Assembly: GCA_010206265.1 (NCBI GenBank)
Contig: VIQV01000029.1
Span: forward strand, 1-64,000
Length of the DNA stretch: 64,000 bases
Direction of reading: 5' to 3'
Source of the DNA: Lachnospiraceae bacterium MD329
GTDB lineage: Bacteria > Bacillota > Clostridia > UBA1381
Positions 55,266 to 64,000 of the stretch are shown here, one piece after another (within the stretch, counting starts at the first letter, position 1; each line of letters starts with the position of its first letter). The notes under the pieces are model-generated. The model was given only the letters and a program-made list of their open reading frames with translations. It did no database searches and was not told the DNA's origin. The position numbers were made by a program, and so were the translations under genes.

Positions 55266-55421
55266 TTAGCAGCAGCTGTCACAGCAGTCGCAGCAATCGT
55301 CGTCAGGCTCTGACGGGTCGTTCTGACCGCAGTCAAGAAATTCTCCCCTTTCCGGCGGGAAAAATTCATCAACCGGGAAATCTATGCGGTCAAACAAATC
55401 ACAAGGGTTATCGTCTGTTGC
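55266..55421 (-). pseudogene. C-terminal fragment of a split Cys-rich gene
   Basis: These 51 codons have no start of their own and read ATDDNPCDLFDRIDFPVDEF ... DDDCCDCCDSCC, then stop. They continue, in frame and at the shared GTTGC core, the middle fragment at 60344-60853 (reconstructed join ECVGA-TDDNPCDLF). The parent belongs to a conserved clostridial family of unknown function that I recognise from blocks such as EGLATFDKKVILFGSEGN and a C-terminal DPC-LF-FP--EF-PP stretch, usually with Cys clusters. The cysteines suggest disulfide or metal binding. The fragment is separated from the rest by the 4.9-kb element. Confidence 0.85.
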
Positions 55422-55443
55422 CGATACCCTTAATAGACCATAA
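55395..55443. other. attL-type junction of the 4.9-kb element
   Basis: The core GTTGC (55417-55421) joins gene sequence on the left to an element arm on the right. The arm 55419-55442 (TGCCGATACCC...GACCATA) is the inverted partner of 60318-60341 at the other end, with 20 of 24 positions matching. The likely crossover dinucleotide is GT (55417-55418). Confidence 0.8.
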
Positions 55444-55506
55444 TGACGAATCTGATAATATACTGTTTTTATTCTTCATATAGTATACAAGGAAGGTGGT
55501 GCGAAT

Positions 55507-55629
55507 ATGGCATATAATTACACTGTAAAGGTAAATTACAAAACGTGCGATGAACGGGAGCGGCGATACATTATTAATAAAAAACTAGCAGGCATCATAA
55601 ATTTAGCGATAAGCGCAAAACCAATCTGA
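55507..55629 (+). CDS. 40-aa protein ahead of the recombinase
   Basis: The protein starts MAYNYTVKVNYKTCDERERR and ends with a short amphipathic helix (AGIINLAISAKPI). GGAAGGTGGTG lies 6 bases before the ATG. The stop is 1 base before the recombinase ATG, which has no ribosome binding site of its own, so translation is probably coupled. A similar-sized ORF precedes the second recombinase. Possible roles are a directionality factor or simply a leader; neither is shown. Confidence 0.55.
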   Translation: MAYNYTVKVNYKTCDERERRYIINKKLAGIINLAISAKPI

Positions 55630-55630
55630 A

Positions 55631-57193
55631 ATGGATACGGCTGCAATTTACATACGTCTGAGTAAGGAGGACAACGGCAAAGGAAACGAAGAAAGCGAGA
55701 GTATTCAAAATCAGCGTATGATTTTGGACAATTACGCGGTAAATCAAGGCTGGTCGGTATATGACAGATATATCGACGAGGATTGGTCTGGAAGTGATAG
55801 GGGCAGACCTGAATTTCACCGTCTGATAAATGACGCTGAGGCAGGAAAATTTAATATTGTGCTTGTTAAGACACAAAGCCGTTTTGCGCGTGACAGCAAA
55901 TATATTGAGGATTATGTACATAACCTTTTTATGGAAAAGGGCATACGGTTTGTTTCTCTTGTTGATAACATAGATACAAATCAAGCCGGTTCAAAACTCA
56001 ACAGCCGTGTACACGCCATATTTGACGAGGAACAGCTTGATTTATTATCATCAAATATCCGCAGAAGCTTTGAAGAAAAGTCCAAACAAGGACAGTTTTT
56101 TGGTTCAATGCCTCCATACGGTTATAAGAAAGACCCTCAGAATAAAAATCATCTTATTATAGACAGCGAGGCAGCAAAAGTTGTACTCACTATTTTTGAA
56201 ATGACCGCGGCAGGGCATACATACCTTGAAATCGCTCAACATCTCAACCATCGGGGGTATCTGATTCCCTCCCAATATAAAAAACAGCAGGGATACAAGG
56301 TTGACGGAATGTATGACCGCCATATGAAGCTCGGCAAATGGACGCGCGATATTGTACGGACATTCCTGACAAACGAGGTTTACAGAGGAACAATTATCAA
56401 TCACAAAAGCACGGTTGTGAATTTCAGGACAAAAAAGAAACGCAATCTTCCAAAGGAATTTCACATCAAGGCAGAAAATATGCACGAATCAATCATTAAC
56501 GAGGAATTATGGAATAAAGTACAGAAAATCCGTAAAACACGTCGCAAGTCCGGAAACGGTGAGAACGGTAAAAAACACCCTCTTTCAGGCAAGGTATTTT
56601 GTAAAAAATGCGGCTCAAAAATGTACAAATGCAAATCCGGCGGTATTGAATACTTCCGCTGCTATAAAGCAAGCTCCACAGGAGAATGTGATAACAACAA
56701 ACGAATCAGACTTGATATTCTTGAAAGCATTATAATTGATAAAATTAATGAACTATTGTCAATGTATATAGACAGTGAATATTTAAGAAAAAACGTGACA
56801 GTTACAAACCATCTTGAAAATGAGCTTTCGGCTTGTATAAAACGAAAAAGTGATTTTGAAAAAGTATTGGAAAGCAAACGCGAAGGTTTAAAAAATTTGC
56901 TTAAAGCCTATACCGATAATGTTGTCGAACGCTCTATATATGAAGAAATGCAAAATGATTATTTGCGTGAGAAAAACGAATGCCAAAAGCATATTACAGC
57001 TATCGAATCGCAAATTGAATTAATAAAGCAGTCAGTGTTAAATCAGAAAGACAAAGAAAGTATTTTAAAAAAGTATACGCATATTGATACACTTACAATT
57101 CCAATTGTACAGGAATTTATTGATTCAATTATTATCAGTGAAGTAAGCAGTCAAAACGGTCAGAGAGATATTATTATAAATATGGCGGTATAA
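55631..57193 (+). CDS. Large serine recombinase (element 1 integrase)
   Basis: This 520-residue recombinase would integrate and excise the element by serine-mediated double-strand exchange. The resolvase catalytic domain (about 3-150) has Ser11 (IYIRLSKED) and the QSRFARD arginine block. The recombinase domain (about 160-290) starts PPYGYKKDP. A zinc ribbon has CKKCGSKMYKCKS and later Cys residues to CDNN (about 318-357). A coiled-coil region (about 390-490) is of the type that controls synapsis in phage integrases. It lies about 85 bp from the left att junction, the usual place. Its attP is the 24-bp-arm dyad formed by the element ends. Confidence 0.93.
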   Translation: MDTAAIYIRLSKEDNGKGNEESESIQNQRMILDNYAVNQGWSVYDRYIDEDWSGSDRGRPEFHRLINDAEAGKFNIVLVKTQSRFARDSKYIEDYVHNLFMEKGIRFVSLVDNIDTNQAGSKLNSRVHAIFDEEQLDLLSSNIRRSFEEKSKQGQFFGSMPPYGYKKDPQNKNHLIIDSEAAKVVLTIFEMTAAGHTYLEIAQHLNHRGYLIPSQYKKQQGYKVDGMYDRHMKLGKWTRDIVRTFLTNEVYRGTIINHKSTVVNFRTKKKRNLPKEFHIKAENMHESIINEELWNKVQKIRKTRRKSGNGENGKKHPLSGKVFCKKCGSKMYKCKSGGIEYFRCYKASSTGECDNNKRIRLDILESIIIDKINELLSMYIDSEYLRKNVTVTNHLENELSACIKRKSDFEKVLESKREGLKNLLKAYTDNVVERSIYEEMQNDYLREKNECQKHITAIESQIELIKQSVLNQKDKESILKKYTHIDTLTIPIVQEFIDSIIISEVSSQNGQRDIIINMAV

Positions 57194-57207
57194 GTCTTAT
57201 TTTTATG

Positions 57208-57245
57208 TTGTATTAATCTAACATTTATGCTATACTTAGATTAAT
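57208..57245 (+). promoter_or_regulatory. Promoter of the EamA gene with a 10-bp inverted repeat
   Basis: TTGTAT (57208-57213), a 17-bp spacer and TATACT (57231-57236) form the promoter. A perfect inverted repeat ATTAATCTAA (57212-57221) / TTAGATTAAT (57236-57245) has one arm in the spacer and one over the start point, as for an operator. Confidence 0.6.
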
Positions 57246-57269
57246 TAGTTATTGGGGAGGATATTACAA

Positions 57270-58193
57270 ATGAATCAAAACACACTCACAAAAACCCCTG
57301 TAGTATGCGCTCTTGCGATTTTATGCTGCATTCTATGGGGAAGCGCCACACCGTCAATAAAGATAGGTTATGAGCTTTTTAATATAGCGTCAGGTGATAC
57401 CGCGTCACAAATACTATTTGCAGGAATGAGATTTATTCTTGCAGGAATTCTGACCATTCTGTTTGGCAGTCTTTTGAGCAGAAAAGCGCTTGTTCCAAAA
57501 AAGAAATCCATTCCGTCTATTGTTAAACTTGCAATGGTACAGACTATTTTACAATATGTCTTTTTCTACATAGGTCACGCGCATACGTCAGGAGTTAAAG
57601 CGGCAATTATTAACGGCTCAAATGTATTTCTTTCAATACTGTTTGCAGTGCTGATTTTCAAATATGAAAAAATGACTTGGGTTAAGCTCATAGGCTGTAT
57701 AGCAGGATTTGCAGGGATTGTTATAATCAACCTTACGGGCGGCGGAATTGATATGAATATGTCGTTTCTCGGCGAGGGAGCAATACTCATTTCCGCTGCT
57801 GCATACGCGCTTTCATCAGGTATGATAAAAAAATATTCACAGGACGAAAACCCCGTAGTATTAAGCGGATACCAGTTTTTCCTCGGCGGCTTGGTTATGA
57901 GCATTGCAGGACTTATCGCAGGAGGTAAGGTTTCAGGTTTTACATTCAGCTCAACAATGCTGCTTATATATCTCGCAATGATTTCATCAGTAGCATATAC
58001 TGTATGGGGAGTATTATTAAAGCATAACCCCGTTGCGAAAGTTACTGTATTTGGGTTTACAAATCCTATGTTCGGTGTACTTTTATCCGCAATATTCCTC
58101 GGTGAAAAAAATCAGGCGTTTGGTATTCAGGGTATAATTGCGCTTGTGCTTGTATGCTTTGGAATATTTATTATTAACAAAGCAAAAAAATAA
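57270..58193 (+). CDS. EamA/DMT-family transporter
   Basis: This 307-residue membrane protein has ten helices in two EamA repeats (LAILCCILWGSATPSIKIGYE near the N-terminus; the second from about 165 onward with SAAAYALSSGMIKKYS). The family exports metabolites such as amino acids, purines or nucleosides; the substrate is not predictable. The ATG at 57270 has GGGGAGG 9 bases upstream. It is cargo of the element, with its own promoter and terminator (58204-58238). Confidence 0.9.
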   Translation: MNQNTLTKTPVVCALAILCCILWGSATPSIKIGYELFNIASGDTASQILFAGMRFILAGILTILFGSLLSRKALVPKKKSIPSIVKLAMVQTILQYVFFYIGHAHTSGVKAAIINGSNVFLSILFAVLIFKYEKMTWVKLIGCIAGFAGIVIINLTGGGIDMNMSFLGEGAILISAAAYALSSGMIKKYSQDENPVVLSGYQFFLGGLVMSIAGLIAGGKVSGFTFSSTMLLIYLAMISSVAYTVWGVLLKHNPVAKVTVFGFTNPMFGVLLSAIFLGEKNQAFGIQGIIALVLVCFGIFIINKAKK

Positions 58194-58203
58194 GTTATAG
58201 AAT

Positions 58204-58238
58204 AAGACTGTATCAATAATGGTACAGTCTTTATTTTT
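58204..58238 (+). terminator. Terminator of the EamA gene
   Basis: The stem AAGACTGTA / TACAGTCTT with a 10-base loop is followed by TATTTTTT. Confidence 0.8.
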
Positions 58239-58262
58239 TATAAAACAGCTATTGTATTTTAA

Positions 58263-58291
58263 TTGACTAAACGCGTAATTTATGATATATT
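58263..58291 (+). promoter_or_regulatory. Promoter of hpt-permease
   Basis: TTGACT (58263-58268), a 17-bp spacer and TATATT (58286-58291) lie before hpt. The leader of about 45 nt is too short for a purine riboswitch. Confidence 0.65.
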
Positions 58292-58340
58292 GTAATATAT
58301 CACAGAATGAGGTAAAAATATGTAAAAAAGGAGGGAAAAT

Positions 58341-58901
58341 ATGCAAATTGGAAGCATCGAGGAATTTCAAAGTAAAATCAAACGCGTTATTATCACAGAA
58401 GAAGAAATTAAATCAGCAGTAAAAAAAGCGGGGGCTATGATAAACTCATTATATGACGGAAAACCAATACTTCTCGTCAGTATACTAAAAGGCTCATTTG
58501 TATTTTTAGCGGATTTATGCAAACAGATAACTGTGCCTTGCGAAATAGGCTTTATGATAGCAAAAAGTTATTATGAAGGCACACAGTCATCAGGCATTGT
58601 TCGTATAAATATGGATTTAGAGCACGATGTCAGTAAATATAATGTGATTATTGTAGAGGACATAATAGACACGGGACGAACTCTAAGTGATGTGGTAAAA
58701 TTACTGAAATCAAGAAATCCTGCTTCTCTCAGGGTTATCACACTGCTGGACAAACCTGACAGACGGATAACTGACTTTAAAGCAGACTACTCGTTGTTCA
58801 CTATTCCGGATTATTTTGTAATAGGTTATGGTTTGGACTGTGGGGAATATTACAGAAATTTGCCATACATAGCGGAGTATTCAGAAGGAAAGGATGAATA
58901 A
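58341..58901 (+). CDS. hpt: Hypoxanthine(-guanine) phosphoribosyltransferase
   Basis: This 186-residue purine-salvage enzyme converts hypoxanthine or guanine plus PRPP to IMP or GMP. The PRPP loop is VEDIIDTGRTL (about 105-115); ILKGSFVFLADL and the C-terminal IPDYFVIGYGLDCGEYYRNLPYI are also typical. AGGAGGG precedes the ATG. It overlaps the purine permease gene by 8 bases, so uptake and salvage are coupled. It is element cargo; an hpt copy elsewhere in the chromosome would be expected but is not visible. Confidence 0.94.
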   Translation: MQIGSIEEFQSKIKRVIITEEEIKSAVKKAGAMINSLYDGKPILLVSILKGSFVFLADLCKQITVPCEIGFMIAKSYYEGTQSSGIVRINMDLEHDVSKYNVIIVEDIIDTGRTLSDVVKLLKSRNPASLRVITLLDKPDRRITDFKADYSLFTIPDYFVIGYGLDCGEYYRNLPYIAEYSEGKDE

Positions 58902-60267
58902 AATGTTTGAAAAGATGTTTAAATTAAAAGAAAACAAGACAAATACAAAAACAGAAATTATCGCAGGTATTACAACGTTTATGACTATGGCGTATATACT
59001 TGCGGTAAACCCAAGTATTTTATCAGAAGCAGGAATGGACAAAACTGCTGTTCTTATCGCAACATGTCTGGCGTCATTCGTAGGTACGGCGTGTATGGCC
59101 TTTATGGCAAACTTACCGTTTGCTCTGTCAGCCGGAATGGGACTTAACGCATTTTTCGCCTATACTGTCGTAATCGGATACGGATATCCGTGGCAGGTTG
59201 CACTGCTTGCAGTTTTTATTGAAGGACTGATTTTTATCGCTCTTTCACTTACCAAAGTACGTGAAGCTATATTTGATTCCATACCGCTGTCACTCAAAAA
59301 GGCAGTTTCTGTCGGTATAGGCTTGTTTATAGCATTTATAGGATTACAAAACTCAGGCTTGGTAATAAAAAATGATTCAACATTGGTTTCAATTATAAAC
59401 TTTACTGATAATTTTAATACAGCAGGTATAAGCGCACTGCTTGCAGTAATCGGCATTTTCATTACAGCTGTACTTTATATTAAGAGGGTAAAAGGTTCAA
59501 TTCTTATAGGAATTGTGGCAACGTGGCTTATTGGTATGCTTTGTCAGGTATGCGGACTTTATGTTCCTGCTCCGGACGCAGGATTTTACTCACTGTTTCC
59601 GACATTCCAGATGACAGACTTCTCAAAAATAGGTGAAACTTTCGGTCAGTGCTTTAATATAGATATGAACGGTGTCGGAATATTTAATTTTATCGTTGTT
59701 ATATTCTCATTTCTGTTTGTTGATCTTTTCGACACGCTCGGAACGCTTATCGGAGTAAGCACAAAAGCAGGTATGCTTGATAAAGACGGTAAACTGGCTA
59801 AAATAAAACCTGCATTGCTGGCAGACTCAATTGCAACTTCTGCAGGAGCAGTTTTCGGTACTTCAACAACTACGACATTTGTTGAATCCTCAGCAGGTGT
59901 TGCGGCAGGCGGACGGACAGGTCTGACCGCACTTACCACGGCAGTTTTGTTCCTTGTATCAATACTGTTCGCACCGATATTTACAGCCATTCCGTCATTT
60001 GCTACTGCGCCGGCGCTGATATTTGTAGGATTCCTTATGTTTACTACAATTTCAGAAATTAAACTTACAGATAACAATTATGCTTCAGCAATACCTGCAT
60101 ATTTATGTGTACTGGCTATGCCTATGTTCTATAGCATAGCAGAAGGTATTTCAATCGGTGTTATATCATATGTTCTGATTAACCTTGTATGCGGTAAGAG
60201 AAAGAATATAAATCTAATAATGTATGTTCTTGCGATATTGTTTATCTTAAAATACATATTCCTGTAA
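58894..60267 (+). CDS. NCS2/AzgA-type purine permease
   Basis: This 457-residue protein has about twelve helices and is of the AzgA (PbuG-like) branch that takes up hypoxanthine, guanine or adenine with protons. Marks are GITTFMTMAYILAVNPSILS near the N-terminus, SAGMGLNAFFAYTVV, and the GTSTTTTFVESSAGVAAGGRTGLTA block. The start overlaps the hpt stop; an ATG 9 bases later is an alternative. With hpt it forms a purine uptake-and-salvage cassette at the right end of the element. Confidence 0.92.
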   Translation: MNKMFEKMFKLKENKTNTKTEIIAGITTFMTMAYILAVNPSILSEAGMDKTAVLIATCLASFVGTACMAFMANLPFALSAGMGLNAFFAYTVVIGYGYPWQVALLAVFIEGLIFIALSLTKVREAIFDSIPLSLKKAVSVGIGLFIAFIGLQNSGLVIKNDSTLVSIINFTDNFNTAGISALLAVIGIFITAVLYIKRVKGSILIGIVATWLIGMLCQVCGLYVPAPDAGFYSLFPTFQMTDFSKIGETFGQCFNIDMNGVGIFNFIVVIFSFLFVDLFDTLGTLIGVSTKAGMLDKDGKLAKIKPALLADSIATSAGAVFGTSTTTTFVESSAGVAAGGRTGLTALTTAVLFLVSILFAPIFTAIPSFATAPALIFVGFLMFTTISEIKLTDNNYASAIPAYLCVLAMPMFYSIAEGISIGVISYVLINLVCGKRKNINLIMYVLAILFILKYIFL

Positions 60268-60274
60268 ACATAAC

Positions 60275-60314
60275 AAAAAAACTCCTGTGAATCATTGTAT
60301 CACAGGAGTTTTTT
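60275..60314 (+). terminator. Terminator of the hpt-permease unit
   Basis: The stem ACTCCTGTGA / TCACAGGAGT (60281-60309) is flanked by six A and five T residues. It lies 4 bp from the right att arm. Confidence 0.9.
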
Positions 60315-60317
60315 CTA

Positions 60318-60368
60318 TATGGTCTATTTAGGGCAGGGGCAGTTGCACCTACACATTCCTTCTGCGGA
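60318..60368. other. attR-type junction of the 4.9-kb element
   Basis: The arm 60318-60341 (TATGGTC...GGGGCA) is followed by core GTTGC (60342-60346) and gene sequence. It mirrors the left junction arm. The gene frame reads ECVGAT up to the core, then leaves the family sequence (APALNRPYRKN). Confidence 0.8.
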
Positions 60369-60853
60369 ATACAGAAATCGTATGAAGGAATAAGCAGCTG
60401 AACGTGTCTTTCAAGCTTAATGATAGAGAATACACCCAGTGAAACAAATACACGTTTCTGGTCGTTGCTTACAGCAAAGCTGTCATCAAAAACCCTGCAA
60501 ACCGAATCGGGGACAGAAGCAAGGTCAAAATCATCATCACAGCAGCACGACTTTTTATCACGAACGTCAACAAGCTTTGCGCCAAGTGCAATCGGGTCTA
60601 CAACCTCAACAATTGCGTGCGGCATATTTGTCTTTCTCCAAAGCTGAGGGTCGATTGCATTCTGCTTATACTTTGACTCAAACACCTTCGCATTACCCTC
60701 CGAACCAAACAAAATAACCTTTTTATCAAAGGTCGCCAGTCCTTCAACCTCTGTCGGACGAGCGCAGCCTGTGAATACTGCAAGAGTTATTTTAAAGAAG
60801 TACTTCAAATCTACCGAATAAAAACCTCTGTTAAACGGTACCGGTTCAATATC
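60344..60853 (-). pseudogene. Middle fragment of the split Cys-rich gene
   Basis: About 170 codons of family sequence run from DIEPVPFNRGFYSVDLKYFF through CARPTEVEGLATFDKKVILF, SCCCDDDFDL and VFVSLGVFSIIKLE to ECVGAT at the attR core. The family normally has a further N-terminal region of roughly 90 residues before this. Here the frame instead begins SHLYLII directly after the second recombinase stop, so a second interruption exists at about 60853-60887. Beyond the core, the frame runs about 35 nonsense codons into the 4.9-kb element. The function is unknown; the CCC and CC clusters could bind metal or form disulfides, as in coat-type proteins. Confidence 0.82.
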
Positions 60854-60887
60854 TAAGAAAATAATCAAGTACAAATGGGACAAATAT

Positions 60888-62480
60888 TTATTCCCATGCC
60901 CAAATTATTTTGAGTATTGGTTTTCCTGTCTTTTCATTTATTTCTCCAAACTCAATACGATCGACAAGATTGTCTATAATCTCGCGGTCTATATCCTTTT
61001 TGTTCAGAAATGATATTAATGATTTTTTTATGTTATCACGTTTTTGTACACTGTTTTTATTCTTCAGTTCCCGCTCAGTTTCTGAAATTCTATTACGAAT
61101 TTCATTTAGCCTGTCATTAAAACCTTTGTTATAGCTTAAATACTCTGCGACTGATATAATATCATTAAGTCTGTCACTGTAAAGATTCTTCTGATTGTTT
61201 AAAATTTTTTCTTCTTCCTTTTTTAAATTTGTCAACTCATTTACAAAAAAAATATTTTTATCATTGTGTTTATTTAAAAGTTCAATAACAAACTTATCAT
61301 CTAAATTATCAATAGCTATATTTTTTAATTCTTCGATGAGCTGTATCTGTAATGCTTCCATAATATAATCTATTCTTATATTTGGAGTAGGGCATCTGTT
61401 TTTCTCTGCATAAGAATATTTATCTCTGCAGCGTAAATATCCTATATGTCCGGCTTTAGATGATACCCCGTGATTTTTCTGCATTGGTTTTCCGCAGTAA
61501 TGACAAAACACCTTACCCGATAGTATATGTACTTTTCCTGTTCCTGCCGCTTTTCTGTGTTTTGACAAACGCGCACGTGTTTCTCCAAACACTTCACGAC
61601 TGACAATAGGCTCGTGCATATCCTTAATAATAATCCTGTTATTTTCCATAACCTTTTTTATTACTTTTGATTTATAACTGACTTTTTCTACTTTATGCTG
61701 AACAACATCACCACAATATACTTGATTATTTAATATATCACCTACAGTAGTTGTACTCCAACAACCTGTTTCATCGGGAGCATACATATATGTCTTTCTT
61801 AATCCGTCAAGTTCCTGTTGTTTTCTTGGATTAGGAATGCCTTTGTCATTAAGCATACGGCTTATTTTTGCCGCGCCATATCCTTCGCCATGCCATTCAA
61901 AAATTTGTTTAACAACAGGCGCAGTATTCGGATTTATAACAAGATGGTTTTTATTCTCTTTATCTTTTGAATATCCATATGGAGGAAAAGCCGCCAGAAA
62001 TTCTCCCTTTTCCATTTTGTGCTTAAAAACCGCTCTGATGTTTTCAGATAAATCCTCAAGATACCATTCGTTTATAAGACCATTTATTTGCCGCGCTTTT
62101 TTATTTCCTTTTATTTCGGTATCAGCATTGTCAATTAGACTTACAAATCTTATACCCCACTCGTAAAATCGACCATTTATATATTGTTCAATGACCTCCA
62201 TATTACGGCTGAAACGCGACTGACTTTTACACAGAATAATATCAAATTTCTTTTGTGAAGCGTCATTTATCATTCGATTAAACTCAGGACGGTCATTATC
62301 GCTTCCGGAATATGCTCCGCTGTAATCCTCATCACAATAAATGTTATAAATCTGCCATTGTCTGTCTGCGGCATAAGTAAAAAGCATTGATTTTTGATTT
62401 TGAATTGACTCACTCTCACGCTCCCCGCTGTATAAATCTTCTTTTGATAAACGTACATAAATAGCTACTGTATTTTTCAT
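60888..62480 (-). CDS. Second large serine recombinase
   Basis: This 530-residue recombinase has the same architecture as the first: catalytic Ser12 (AIYVRLSKED), CKSQSRFSRN, a recombinase domain (PPYGYSKDKENK), a zinc ribbon (CHYCGKPM ... CRDKYSYAEKNRCPTP, about 337-376) and a coiled-coil region. The ATG at 62480 has AAAGGAGG; the longer frame lacks support. Its stop lies about 35 bp from where the split gene resumes, so the junction of its element is at about 60853-60887. An ATGGGA...TCCCAT dyad (about 60876-60898) overlaps the stop and may be part of the att arm. The other end is outside the window. Confidence 0.93.
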   Translation of the reverse strand: MKNTVAIYVRLSKEDLYSGERESESIQNQKSMLFTYAADRQWQIYNIYCDEDYSGAYSGSDNDRPEFNRMINDASQKKFDIILCKSQSRFSRNMEVIEQYINGRFYEWGIRFVSLIDNADTEIKGNKKARQINGLINEWYLEDLSENIRAVFKHKMEKGEFLAAFPPYGYSKDKENKNHLVINPNTAPVVKQIFEWHGEGYGAAKISRMLNDKGIPNPRKQQELDGLRKTYMYAPDETGCWSTTTVGDILNNQVYCGDVVQHKVEKVSYKSKVIKKVMENNRIIIKDMHEPIVSREVFGETRARLSKHRKAAGTGKVHILSGKVFCHYCGKPMQKNHGVSSKAGHIGYLRCRDKYSYAEKNRCPTPNIRIDYIMEALQIQLIEELKNIAIDNLDDKFVIELLNKHNDKNIFFVNELTNLKKEEEKILNNQKNLYSDRLNDIISVAEYLSYNKGFNDRLNEIRNRISETERELKNKNSVQKRDNIKKSLISFLNKKDIDREIIDNLVDRIEFGEINEKTGKPILKIIWAWE

Positions 62481-62569
62481 AATGTATAATCCTCCTTTAT
62501 CAGAGAACTTCACATTCATTATCATATATAATCATACCATAGCATATATAATAACGCAAAAATAAAGTC

Positions 62570-62701
62570 CTATTTTTGAATTTTTTGATTTATTGTATTA
62601 AATACAGCTTGTTTTATCTTGTTTTGACTTTCATCTGAATGTATATCGATTTCTTCTCTGCTTTTGTTACAATGGATAATATCGACTTCTAATGCTTTCA
62701 A
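62570..62701 (-). CDS. 43-aa protein ahead of the second recombinase
   Basis: The protein starts MKALEVDIIHCNKSREE and ends with a helix (KIKQAVFNTINQKIQK). A TTG start with GAGGTG 6 bases upstream; an in-frame GTG three codons earlier is possible. It parallels the 40-aa ORF ahead of recombinase 1 in size, place and helical C-terminus. The role is unknown. Confidence 0.5.
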   Translation of the reverse strand: MKALEVDIIHCNKSREEIDIHSDESQNKIKQAVFNTINQKIQK

Positions 62702-62762
62702 AACACTCACCTCAGTTAAATTTATGAACTTTACAGATTGTACTATGATGTTTTTATGTCAT

Positions 62763-62803: not shown

Positions 62804-64000
62804 TTAAGTATATTTTTCTATGATCTCAATCGCATCTGTCGATAAATTTGGATTTTCATATGTTATAATAAGCCTTCCGGGGAAATTTTTTTCATACCAT
62901 TTTAATTTTTTCTCCCAATGAACTTTATACTGCGGCAAATCCAATCTTCCTACATGCTCCCAATAATATGTTTCACCATGAAATTTAACTGTAAAATCGG
63001 GAAGATACATTGAGCCATCCTTGGCATATAACGGCTGTTCGTACTTAAACGAAACATCTTTTTGTGTCAGCATATTTGCAATTATTACTTCTGACTTAGA
63101 ACGCACAAAATATTCTGATAGTGTTGCCAATTTCTTTTCTGATTCATACCAATTCTGAATATATAATAAGTCCTTCGGAAGCGGCGCAAACTTGAATATT
63201 GAAGAATTTATCTTTTTTACGGCAGACTTTTCCATATGGCTCAATGTTGTAAGTGTTCCAATATCCTCCTGAAGAAAAATCGTTACTCTTTTTTGCGCTC
63301 TTGTAATAGCCGTATACAACAATTCCATTGAAAGCAAGTGGCTGTCACGCTTTGGAATTACGATATATACATAATCAAATTCAGAACCTTGAGATTTATG
63401 TACGCTTATAGCATATGCTAATTCAAGATTGTCTTCAACCTTCTGTTCAGGTAACCACCACCCGCGCTCATTTTTTCCAAATTTTTTACCATAACAATAA
63501 CTTAGATTTTTTCTGCTTTCATTTGAAAATTTTACTTGTAGTCTTTCAATTCTATTAATATACTTAAAGCTTTTATTTTTTATTTCAAAGGGATGCATTC
63601 CGGCAATGCCAATTTCTCCATTATAAATCTCTTTCTTTTCTATCTTTTTAGTGTCAAAATTATACGCAAATGTTATATCTGATTGTGGTCTGTTCCTAAT
63701 CTGAATTACCTTATCAAAATACGTAATTCCACCAAAAGTATATTTACTGCTCCAATAGCCATTAAATGTCTTTTGCATCAAAACATTTAATGCTTCCGTA
63801 CCATAAAATTCACCGCGATATGGAGATATTATCTGTATCGTTTCAGGATTTTGTTCACCATTCTGACCTTTAATCGCTTTGCTCCACAAAGTATGTAAAT
63901 CTGTTTCTTCAGATACATTAAGTCCTGTATAATCTTCCATGTCTTTTACTAAAACATCAGTCAAAACAGTTTCAAACTCGCTTTGATCTTTCCAGAAATA
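62804..64000 (-). CDS. RecD-like SF1 helicase with C-terminal nuclease-like domain (5' end cut)
   Basis: The frame is open to the right edge, so the N-terminal part, including Walker A, is outside. The visible 398 residues hold the SF1 C-terminal motifs: SPYRGEFYGTEALN, AYAISVHKSQGSEFDYVYIVIP (motif V-like) and LLYTAITRAQKRVTIFL (motif VI, UvrD_C_2/RecD type). A tail at about 300-395 reads SKSEVIIANMLTQKDVSFKYEQ, then LPDFTVKFHGETYYWEHVG. This matches a PD-(D/E)xK-like nuclease core (Glu, Asp, Glu-x-Val). Such fusions occur on mobile elements and in defence loci. It probably belongs to the second recombinase element. Confidence 0.8.
   Translation of the reverse strand, partial: YFWKDQSEFETVLTDVLVKDMEDYTGLNVSEETDLHTLWSKAIKGQNGEQNPETIQIISPYRGEFYGTEALNVLMQKTFNGYWSSKYTFGGITYFDKVIQIRNRPQSDITFAYNFDTKKIEKKEIYNGEIGIAGMHPFEIKNKSFKYINRIERLQVKFSNESRKNLSYCYGKKFGKNERGWWLPEQKVEDNLELAYAISVHKSQGSEFDYVYIVIPKRDSHLLSMELLYTAITRAQKRVTIFLQEDIGTLTTLSHMEKSAVKKINSSIFKFAPLPKDLLYIQNWYESEKKLATLSEYFVRSKSEVIIANMLTQKDVSFKYEQPLYAKDGSMYLPDFTVKFHGETYYWEHVGRLDLPQYKVHWEKKLKWYEKNFPGRLIITYENPNLSTDAIEIIEKYT

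Follow-up and report, generated by a model that had tools for sequence, protein, structure and literature searches.

Three site-specific recombinase elements divide a probable late mother-cell gene into four pieces in a Lachnospiraceae genome

Introduction

Why does a reading frame in a Lachnospiraceae genome begin in the middle of a conserved protein, next to a large serine recombinase, and where is the rest of the gene? The window, that is the whole stretch of 64,000 nucleotides analyzed here, corresponds to positions 1-64000 of contig C23 in a draft genome of 2.74 Mb (86 contigs), and the numbering of C23 continues that of the window. The original prediction was that one gene had been cut at two different sites by two independent recombinase elements, and that about 90 N-terminal residues were missing and would lie beyond the right edge. 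We examined the pieces of the gene, the elements between them, the same locus in related genomes, and the explanations that could account for such an arrangement.

Results

Four pieces of one gene

A search of the genome with an intact homologue found four co-oriented and ordered matches on the minus strand of C23, with E values of 2.8e-101, 1.1e-21, 8.5e-18, and 9e-10; chance is excluded by values in this range. The C-terminal piece 4 (ATDDNPCD...CC, 55266-55421, stop codon at 55266-55268) starts at a short core sequence at site C, and the middle piece 3 (DIEPVPF...KECVGAT, 60342-60854) runs from the core of site B to that of site C. The minus-strand frame of the latter between 60344 and 60853 reads DIEPVPFNRGFYSVD..., with the Asp codon of DIEPVPF at approximately 60851-60853. 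Two further pieces lie outside the window: piece 2 (67961-68080, about 38 residues) is 7.1 kb from piece 3, and the N-terminal piece 1 (105974-106072, start codon at 106072) is found about 38 kb past piece 2, behind a third element. The three elements A, B, and C each carry a short direct repeat at both ends, namely TGATAAG at site A (68074-68080 and 105974-105980), AGATAT at site B (60849-60854 and 67961-67966), and GCAAC at site C (55417-55421 and 60342-60346), and their removal restores the reading frame. When the four pieces are fused at the cores, a single 289-aa ORF with zero internal stops is obtained.

The abrupt start at DIEPVPF that had been noted was borne out, and intact homologues extend further upstream. 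Relatives retrieved with the fragment show that intact family members have approximately 270-300 residues and a cysteine-rich end, and that about 77 residues precede DIEPVPF; the missing N-terminus is real, but shorter than first guessed. As predicted, it is located beyond the right edge, although as two parts rather than one, and it was found there on the minus strand, in frame and with a mirrored arm, so that joining it restores the frame. No family member naturally starting at DIEPVPF was found: those that start there are split genes, as in G030, G057, and G063, where the gene is split at that codon and the N-terminal piece is located elsewhere in the genome. The edge of piece 3 at DIEPVPF is a true element junction, with AGATAT at both ends on the same contig, and similar arms occur at the identical codon in other genomes.

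Two small islands at sites B and C

Element C (55417-60346; 4,925 bp) has inverted-repeat arms around ATGGTCTAT and is a metabolic-cargo island. On its plus strand a 40-aa ORF (55507-55629) stands directly upstream of a large serine recombinase (55631-57193) with Pfam Resolvase, Recombinase, and Zn_ribbon domains, assigned by the tree below to the site C lineage. The cargo (57252-60267, plus strand) consists of an EamA transporter, a Hpt-like phosphoribosyltransferase, and a purine-type permease (Xan_ur_permease).

Element B (60849-67966; 7,112 bp), of which the window holds only the left part up to 64000, is a helicase island. Its large serine recombinase (60888-62525, minus strand; Pfam Resolvase, Recombinase, and zinc-ribbon) belongs by the tree to the site B lineage, and its stop codon is located about 35 bp from the gene fragment, as had been noted from the sequence. 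The proposal of a second independent element at a different site of the gene also holds, and the gene is cut by a third as well. A 43-aa ORF with a TTG start (62570-62701, minus strand) lies directly upstream of the recombinase. The cargo is a RecD2-like helicase of 1,236 aa (62804-66514, minus strand; the C-terminal part, 62804-64000, is in the window) and an AAA_14/DUF4143 ATPase (66504-67859, outside the window). No phage genes were seen in the content of element B or element C, and no free circular form of either was found in the IMG/VR scan with their recombinases.

The small ORF beside the recombinase is conserved in 6/6 B elements and in locus L306, which was not included in model building, and it is kept in 5/5 C elements examined. 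The 40-aa ORF of element C has no Pfam match, and the B and C small ORFs (about 40-50 aa) show no demonstrable relatedness to each other. By analogy with CD1234 and SprB, which are precedents for recombination directionality factors (RDFs) (PMC5025042), we propose that both serve as RDFs. No convincing sigma-E/K promoters were found upstream of the recombinases or the RDF candidates. Most B small ORFs are preceded by a conserved block, CATAGTACAATCTATAA...CATAAATTT (approximately 62700-62760 in the window, minus strand). The GTACAA within it is also the B arm motif, so the block may be a recombinase binding site; the CATAGTACAATCTATAA-like block was tried as a sigma-E or sigma-K promoter and shows no clear fit to either consensus. 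At L306 (IMG/VR 3300032167_007466, 109 kb) the site B recombinase adjoins the 5' gene piece and points the other way from the rest of the B elements observed, which a palindromic AT crossover would allow.

Recurrence of the interruptions in relatives

In the family to which the window belongs, 70 genomes were searched and 62 gave a convincing match. By our reading of the matches and junction sequences, the gene is intact in 29 and split in 30, while one genome is contaminated with many fragments and in two the gene is cut by contig ends. The elements are dispensable for the host, because roughly half of the family carry the gene uninterrupted. Insertions fall at five recurrent sites (A in 17 genomes, C in 12, B in 6, E in 5, and D in 1), at least two sites are occupied in eight genomes, and in G045 four occupied sites (A, B, E, and C) leave the gene in five pieces, of which the first is on a separate contig. 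In other families, sites B and E are again occupied. Wherever both sides of a junction were sampled, an in-frame join that fits the family alignment could be made, with profile score used to choose the best join. Element size at the gene ranges from 1.4 kb, with a recombinase of about 290 aa, to complete phages. Extra partial gene copies, mostly of the C-terminal part, were observed beside the main copy in G004, G002, G016, and G056, and are possibly paralogues or remnants.

A maximum-likelihood tree of 46 recombinases contains one clade per site, with 17 rows for A, 9 for B, 5 for C, and 7 for E. Clades A, C, and E and the core of B are supported at 99-100; when the distant B_G150 is included, the full B clade has 95/81. 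Site labels need the fewest possible changes on this tree, a number reached by 0 of 200 shuffles, and clade A includes the recombinase of the G000 prophage. A distinct recombinase lineage is tied to each of A, B, C, and E; site D was seen in one genome only. The closest recombinase pairs at three sites cross genera (G013/G020 at A, G044/G045 at C, and G000/G057 at B), which suggests horizontal movement between genomes with the site kept. The site A recombinases of G013 (L163) and G020 (L180), two genera, are nearly identical, likely the product of a recent transfer.

We lean slightly toward a class-wide reading of this pattern, in which at least four, and probably five, recombinase lineages have settled on different conserved codons of one late mother-cell gene that acts as a docking gene, with up to four elements stacked, giving a multi-"exon" gene that would undergo several programmed excisions in one terminal cell.

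Promoter, protein product, and selection on the pieces

A sigma-K-type motif, AC-N15-18-CATAnnnTA, is present no more than 110 bp upstream of the start in 75% of 77 non-redundant family members, compared with a mean of 1.3% and a maximum of 5.2% in shuffles. In the genome of the window the motif reads ACAC...CATATTCTA and lies some 50 bp before the start of piece 1. The gap of sigma-K promoters in B. subtilis is 14-16 nt, with which the gap of the family motif agrees (PMC517825). A genome search found sigK in one piece, above the family cut-off, together with other sporulation-type sigma factors and SpoIVA (spoIVA). The motif and these sporulation genes point to the interrupted gene as a sporulation gene.

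The intact protein is not matched by any Pfam model, and a TraV identity was rejected, its NCBIfam match being sub-threshold only. The AlphaFold model is beta-rich and partly confident (mean pLDDT 64.5); a Foldseek search against the PDB gave no credible match, so no function is drawn from the fold. From the promoter, the cysteine-rich ends, and the conservation, the product is probably a coat protein. Outside the window, at C23:106157-106834, the gene upstream of piece 1 encodes an Amidase_2 protein that may be an enzyme of the spore cell wall.

The split pieces are free of stops, and their pN is about 0.06-0.17 per site with synonymous change near saturation, as in intact genes; a dN/dS number is withheld because synonymous sites are saturated. 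Two congeneric genomes that share the A and C elements gave pN 0.068 and pS 0.60 for the middle pieces, and pN 0.009 and pS 0.39 for the C-terminal piece. If these insertions are shared by descent, the separated pieces are probably maintained for function; if they are recent, the measured constraint could predate them, a chance that the shared-element comparison lowers.

These values bear on the explanation that the gene is dead: a selfish hot spot with good attB sites into which elements have inserted, leaving decaying remnants whose function is never restored. The absence of some pieces from several draft assemblies would fit such decay, as would some element turnover and the transfer between genera seen in the near-identical A recombinases of G013 and G020. 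However, pieces up to 38 kb apart have acquired neither stops nor frameshifts, their amino-acid constraint is like that of intact genes, the promoter motif is kept upstream of the N-terminal piece, every pair rejoins in frame, and element A excises precisely, as seen in its free circle (below). We regard a dead gene as unlikely.

A prophage at site A and its free circle

Element A, between pieces 1 and 2, is 37,900 bp (37.9 kb) long. It encodes terminase, portal, head morphogenesis, major tail, tape measure, Dit, tail, holin, and endolysin proteins, a gene set that marks it as a siphophage-like prophage. The recombinase gene lies at C23:100043-101572; no RDF was recognized in the element. Both ends of element A align at about 100% to the metagenomic contig IMGVR_UViG_3300006217_000191 (37,979 bp). 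In this contig the ends meet at a single 7-bp core flanked by symmetric arms, an attP junction, and the contig carries a 77-bp direct terminal repeat. It represents the free circle that excision of element A should yield, and gives no indication of when excision took place. Other A-type prophages in IMG/VR carry matching gene pieces.

Phage induction outside sporulation is possible for element A, and the circle could stem from such ordinary induction. More generally, excision and reinsertion might take place in growing cells as active lysogeny without a tie to sporulation, the coat gene being repaired incidentally. A complete free circle in a metagenome and an integrated copy with a full structural gene set are what such a process would leave, and excised yin has likewise been found in every growth phase (PMC10747680). 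On the other hand, the target gene has a sigma-K-type promoter, so that its repair would be of consequence in the mother cell only, and no phage genes were seen in elements B and C. This explanation we also hold to be improbable. That chimeric joins placed unrelated elements inside one gene is a negligible prospect: nearly all the genomes are draft assemblies, mostly from metagenomes, but the same five sites, site-specific arms, and recombinase lineages occur in many independent assemblies, and the attP contig fits both ends of element A.

Discussion

Proposed explanation

The reading that we favor, and consider quite probable from the draft genome, is that a late mother-cell gene, probably for a spore-coat protein, lies in four pieces and is rebuilt by excision of elements A, B, and C at the time of sporulation. 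Each element would have entered the coding sequence at a dedicated attB, by means of its own large serine recombinase lineage. During sporulation an element-encoded RDF most likely switches each recombinase to excision at the short core. The terminal mother cell would then regain the complete 289-aa frame and transcribe it from the sigma-K promoter, while the spore chromosome would keep all three elements. Mother-cell timing, the excision of elements B and C, the RDF role of the small ORFs, and the coat function are all inferred.

Relation to known systems

The skin element in sigK of B. subtilis and C. difficile (CD1231/CD1234 in the latter) is a large serine recombinase element (PMC5025042). 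The likeness lies in an element inside a mother-cell sporulation gene whose excision restores the frame, with an element-encoded RDF in C. difficile. However, skin is one element in a sigma-factor gene, whereas in the present genome sigK is in one piece and three elements of three lineages sit in a gene with a sigma-K-type promoter. Closest to element A is the SP-beta prophage in spsM, a phage within a spore-envelope gene that is excised to rebuild the gene (PMC4191935); it is a single element in a different gene, whereas site A has a dedicated recombinase lineage. Elements B and C most resemble gin in the late mother-cell gene gerE, which is non-phage and carries three serine recombinases at one insertion site (PMC5595907). 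It measures 28.6 kb, in contrast to 4.9-7.1 kb with one recombinase each in the present case, and 1.4 kb at site E in relatives. The prophage-like yin in yabG interrupts a sigma-K target and has been reported for just a single strain (PMC10747680), and vfbin in spoVFB is, as cited in that report, a prophage-like element in a sporulation gene; both are single insertions, unlike the three stacked here.

The closest architectural precedent is found in the heterocyst interruption elements, where several elements can occupy one developmental gene: nifD of Rivularia is cut by four, and heterocyst recombinases mostly cluster by insertion site (PMC4874684). Those elements interrupt nitrogen-fixation and related genes of cyanobacteria, which are not endospore formers, and use both serine and tyrosine recombinases. 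Stacking and site-grouped recombinases were already known from heterocyst genes; what appears to be new is stacking in a sporulation gene. The literature searched, which left out most subscription journals and is weak evidence on this point, contains single insertions in sporulation genes and no stacked ones.

A late sporulation gene with three to four elements, each served by a dedicated recombinase lineage, suggests that genes of terminal cells are safe harbours for mobile DNA, and the evolution of gene-intervening elements becomes testable by comparison. The locus also offers four recombinase families, each matched to a site, together with their natural att sites and candidate RDFs. Splitting accounts for a conserved gene being easily missed or misannotated in genomes.

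Small site E elements were observed at loci L311, L312, L313, and L318. The one in G147 (L311, G147:C1:237000-241000) is 1.37 kb and encodes a GAF protein and a recombinase of about 290 aa, which has Pfam Resolvase and Recombinase only, without the zinc ribbon, and whose frame appears to end inside the host gene piece. Those in G168 and G219 are 2.34 kb and encode GAF, HAD hydrolase, and recombinase proteins. The 2.7-Mb genome G000 contains 22 PF07508 matches, several of them close together (C37 and C67), and other genes of G000 may be interrupted too.
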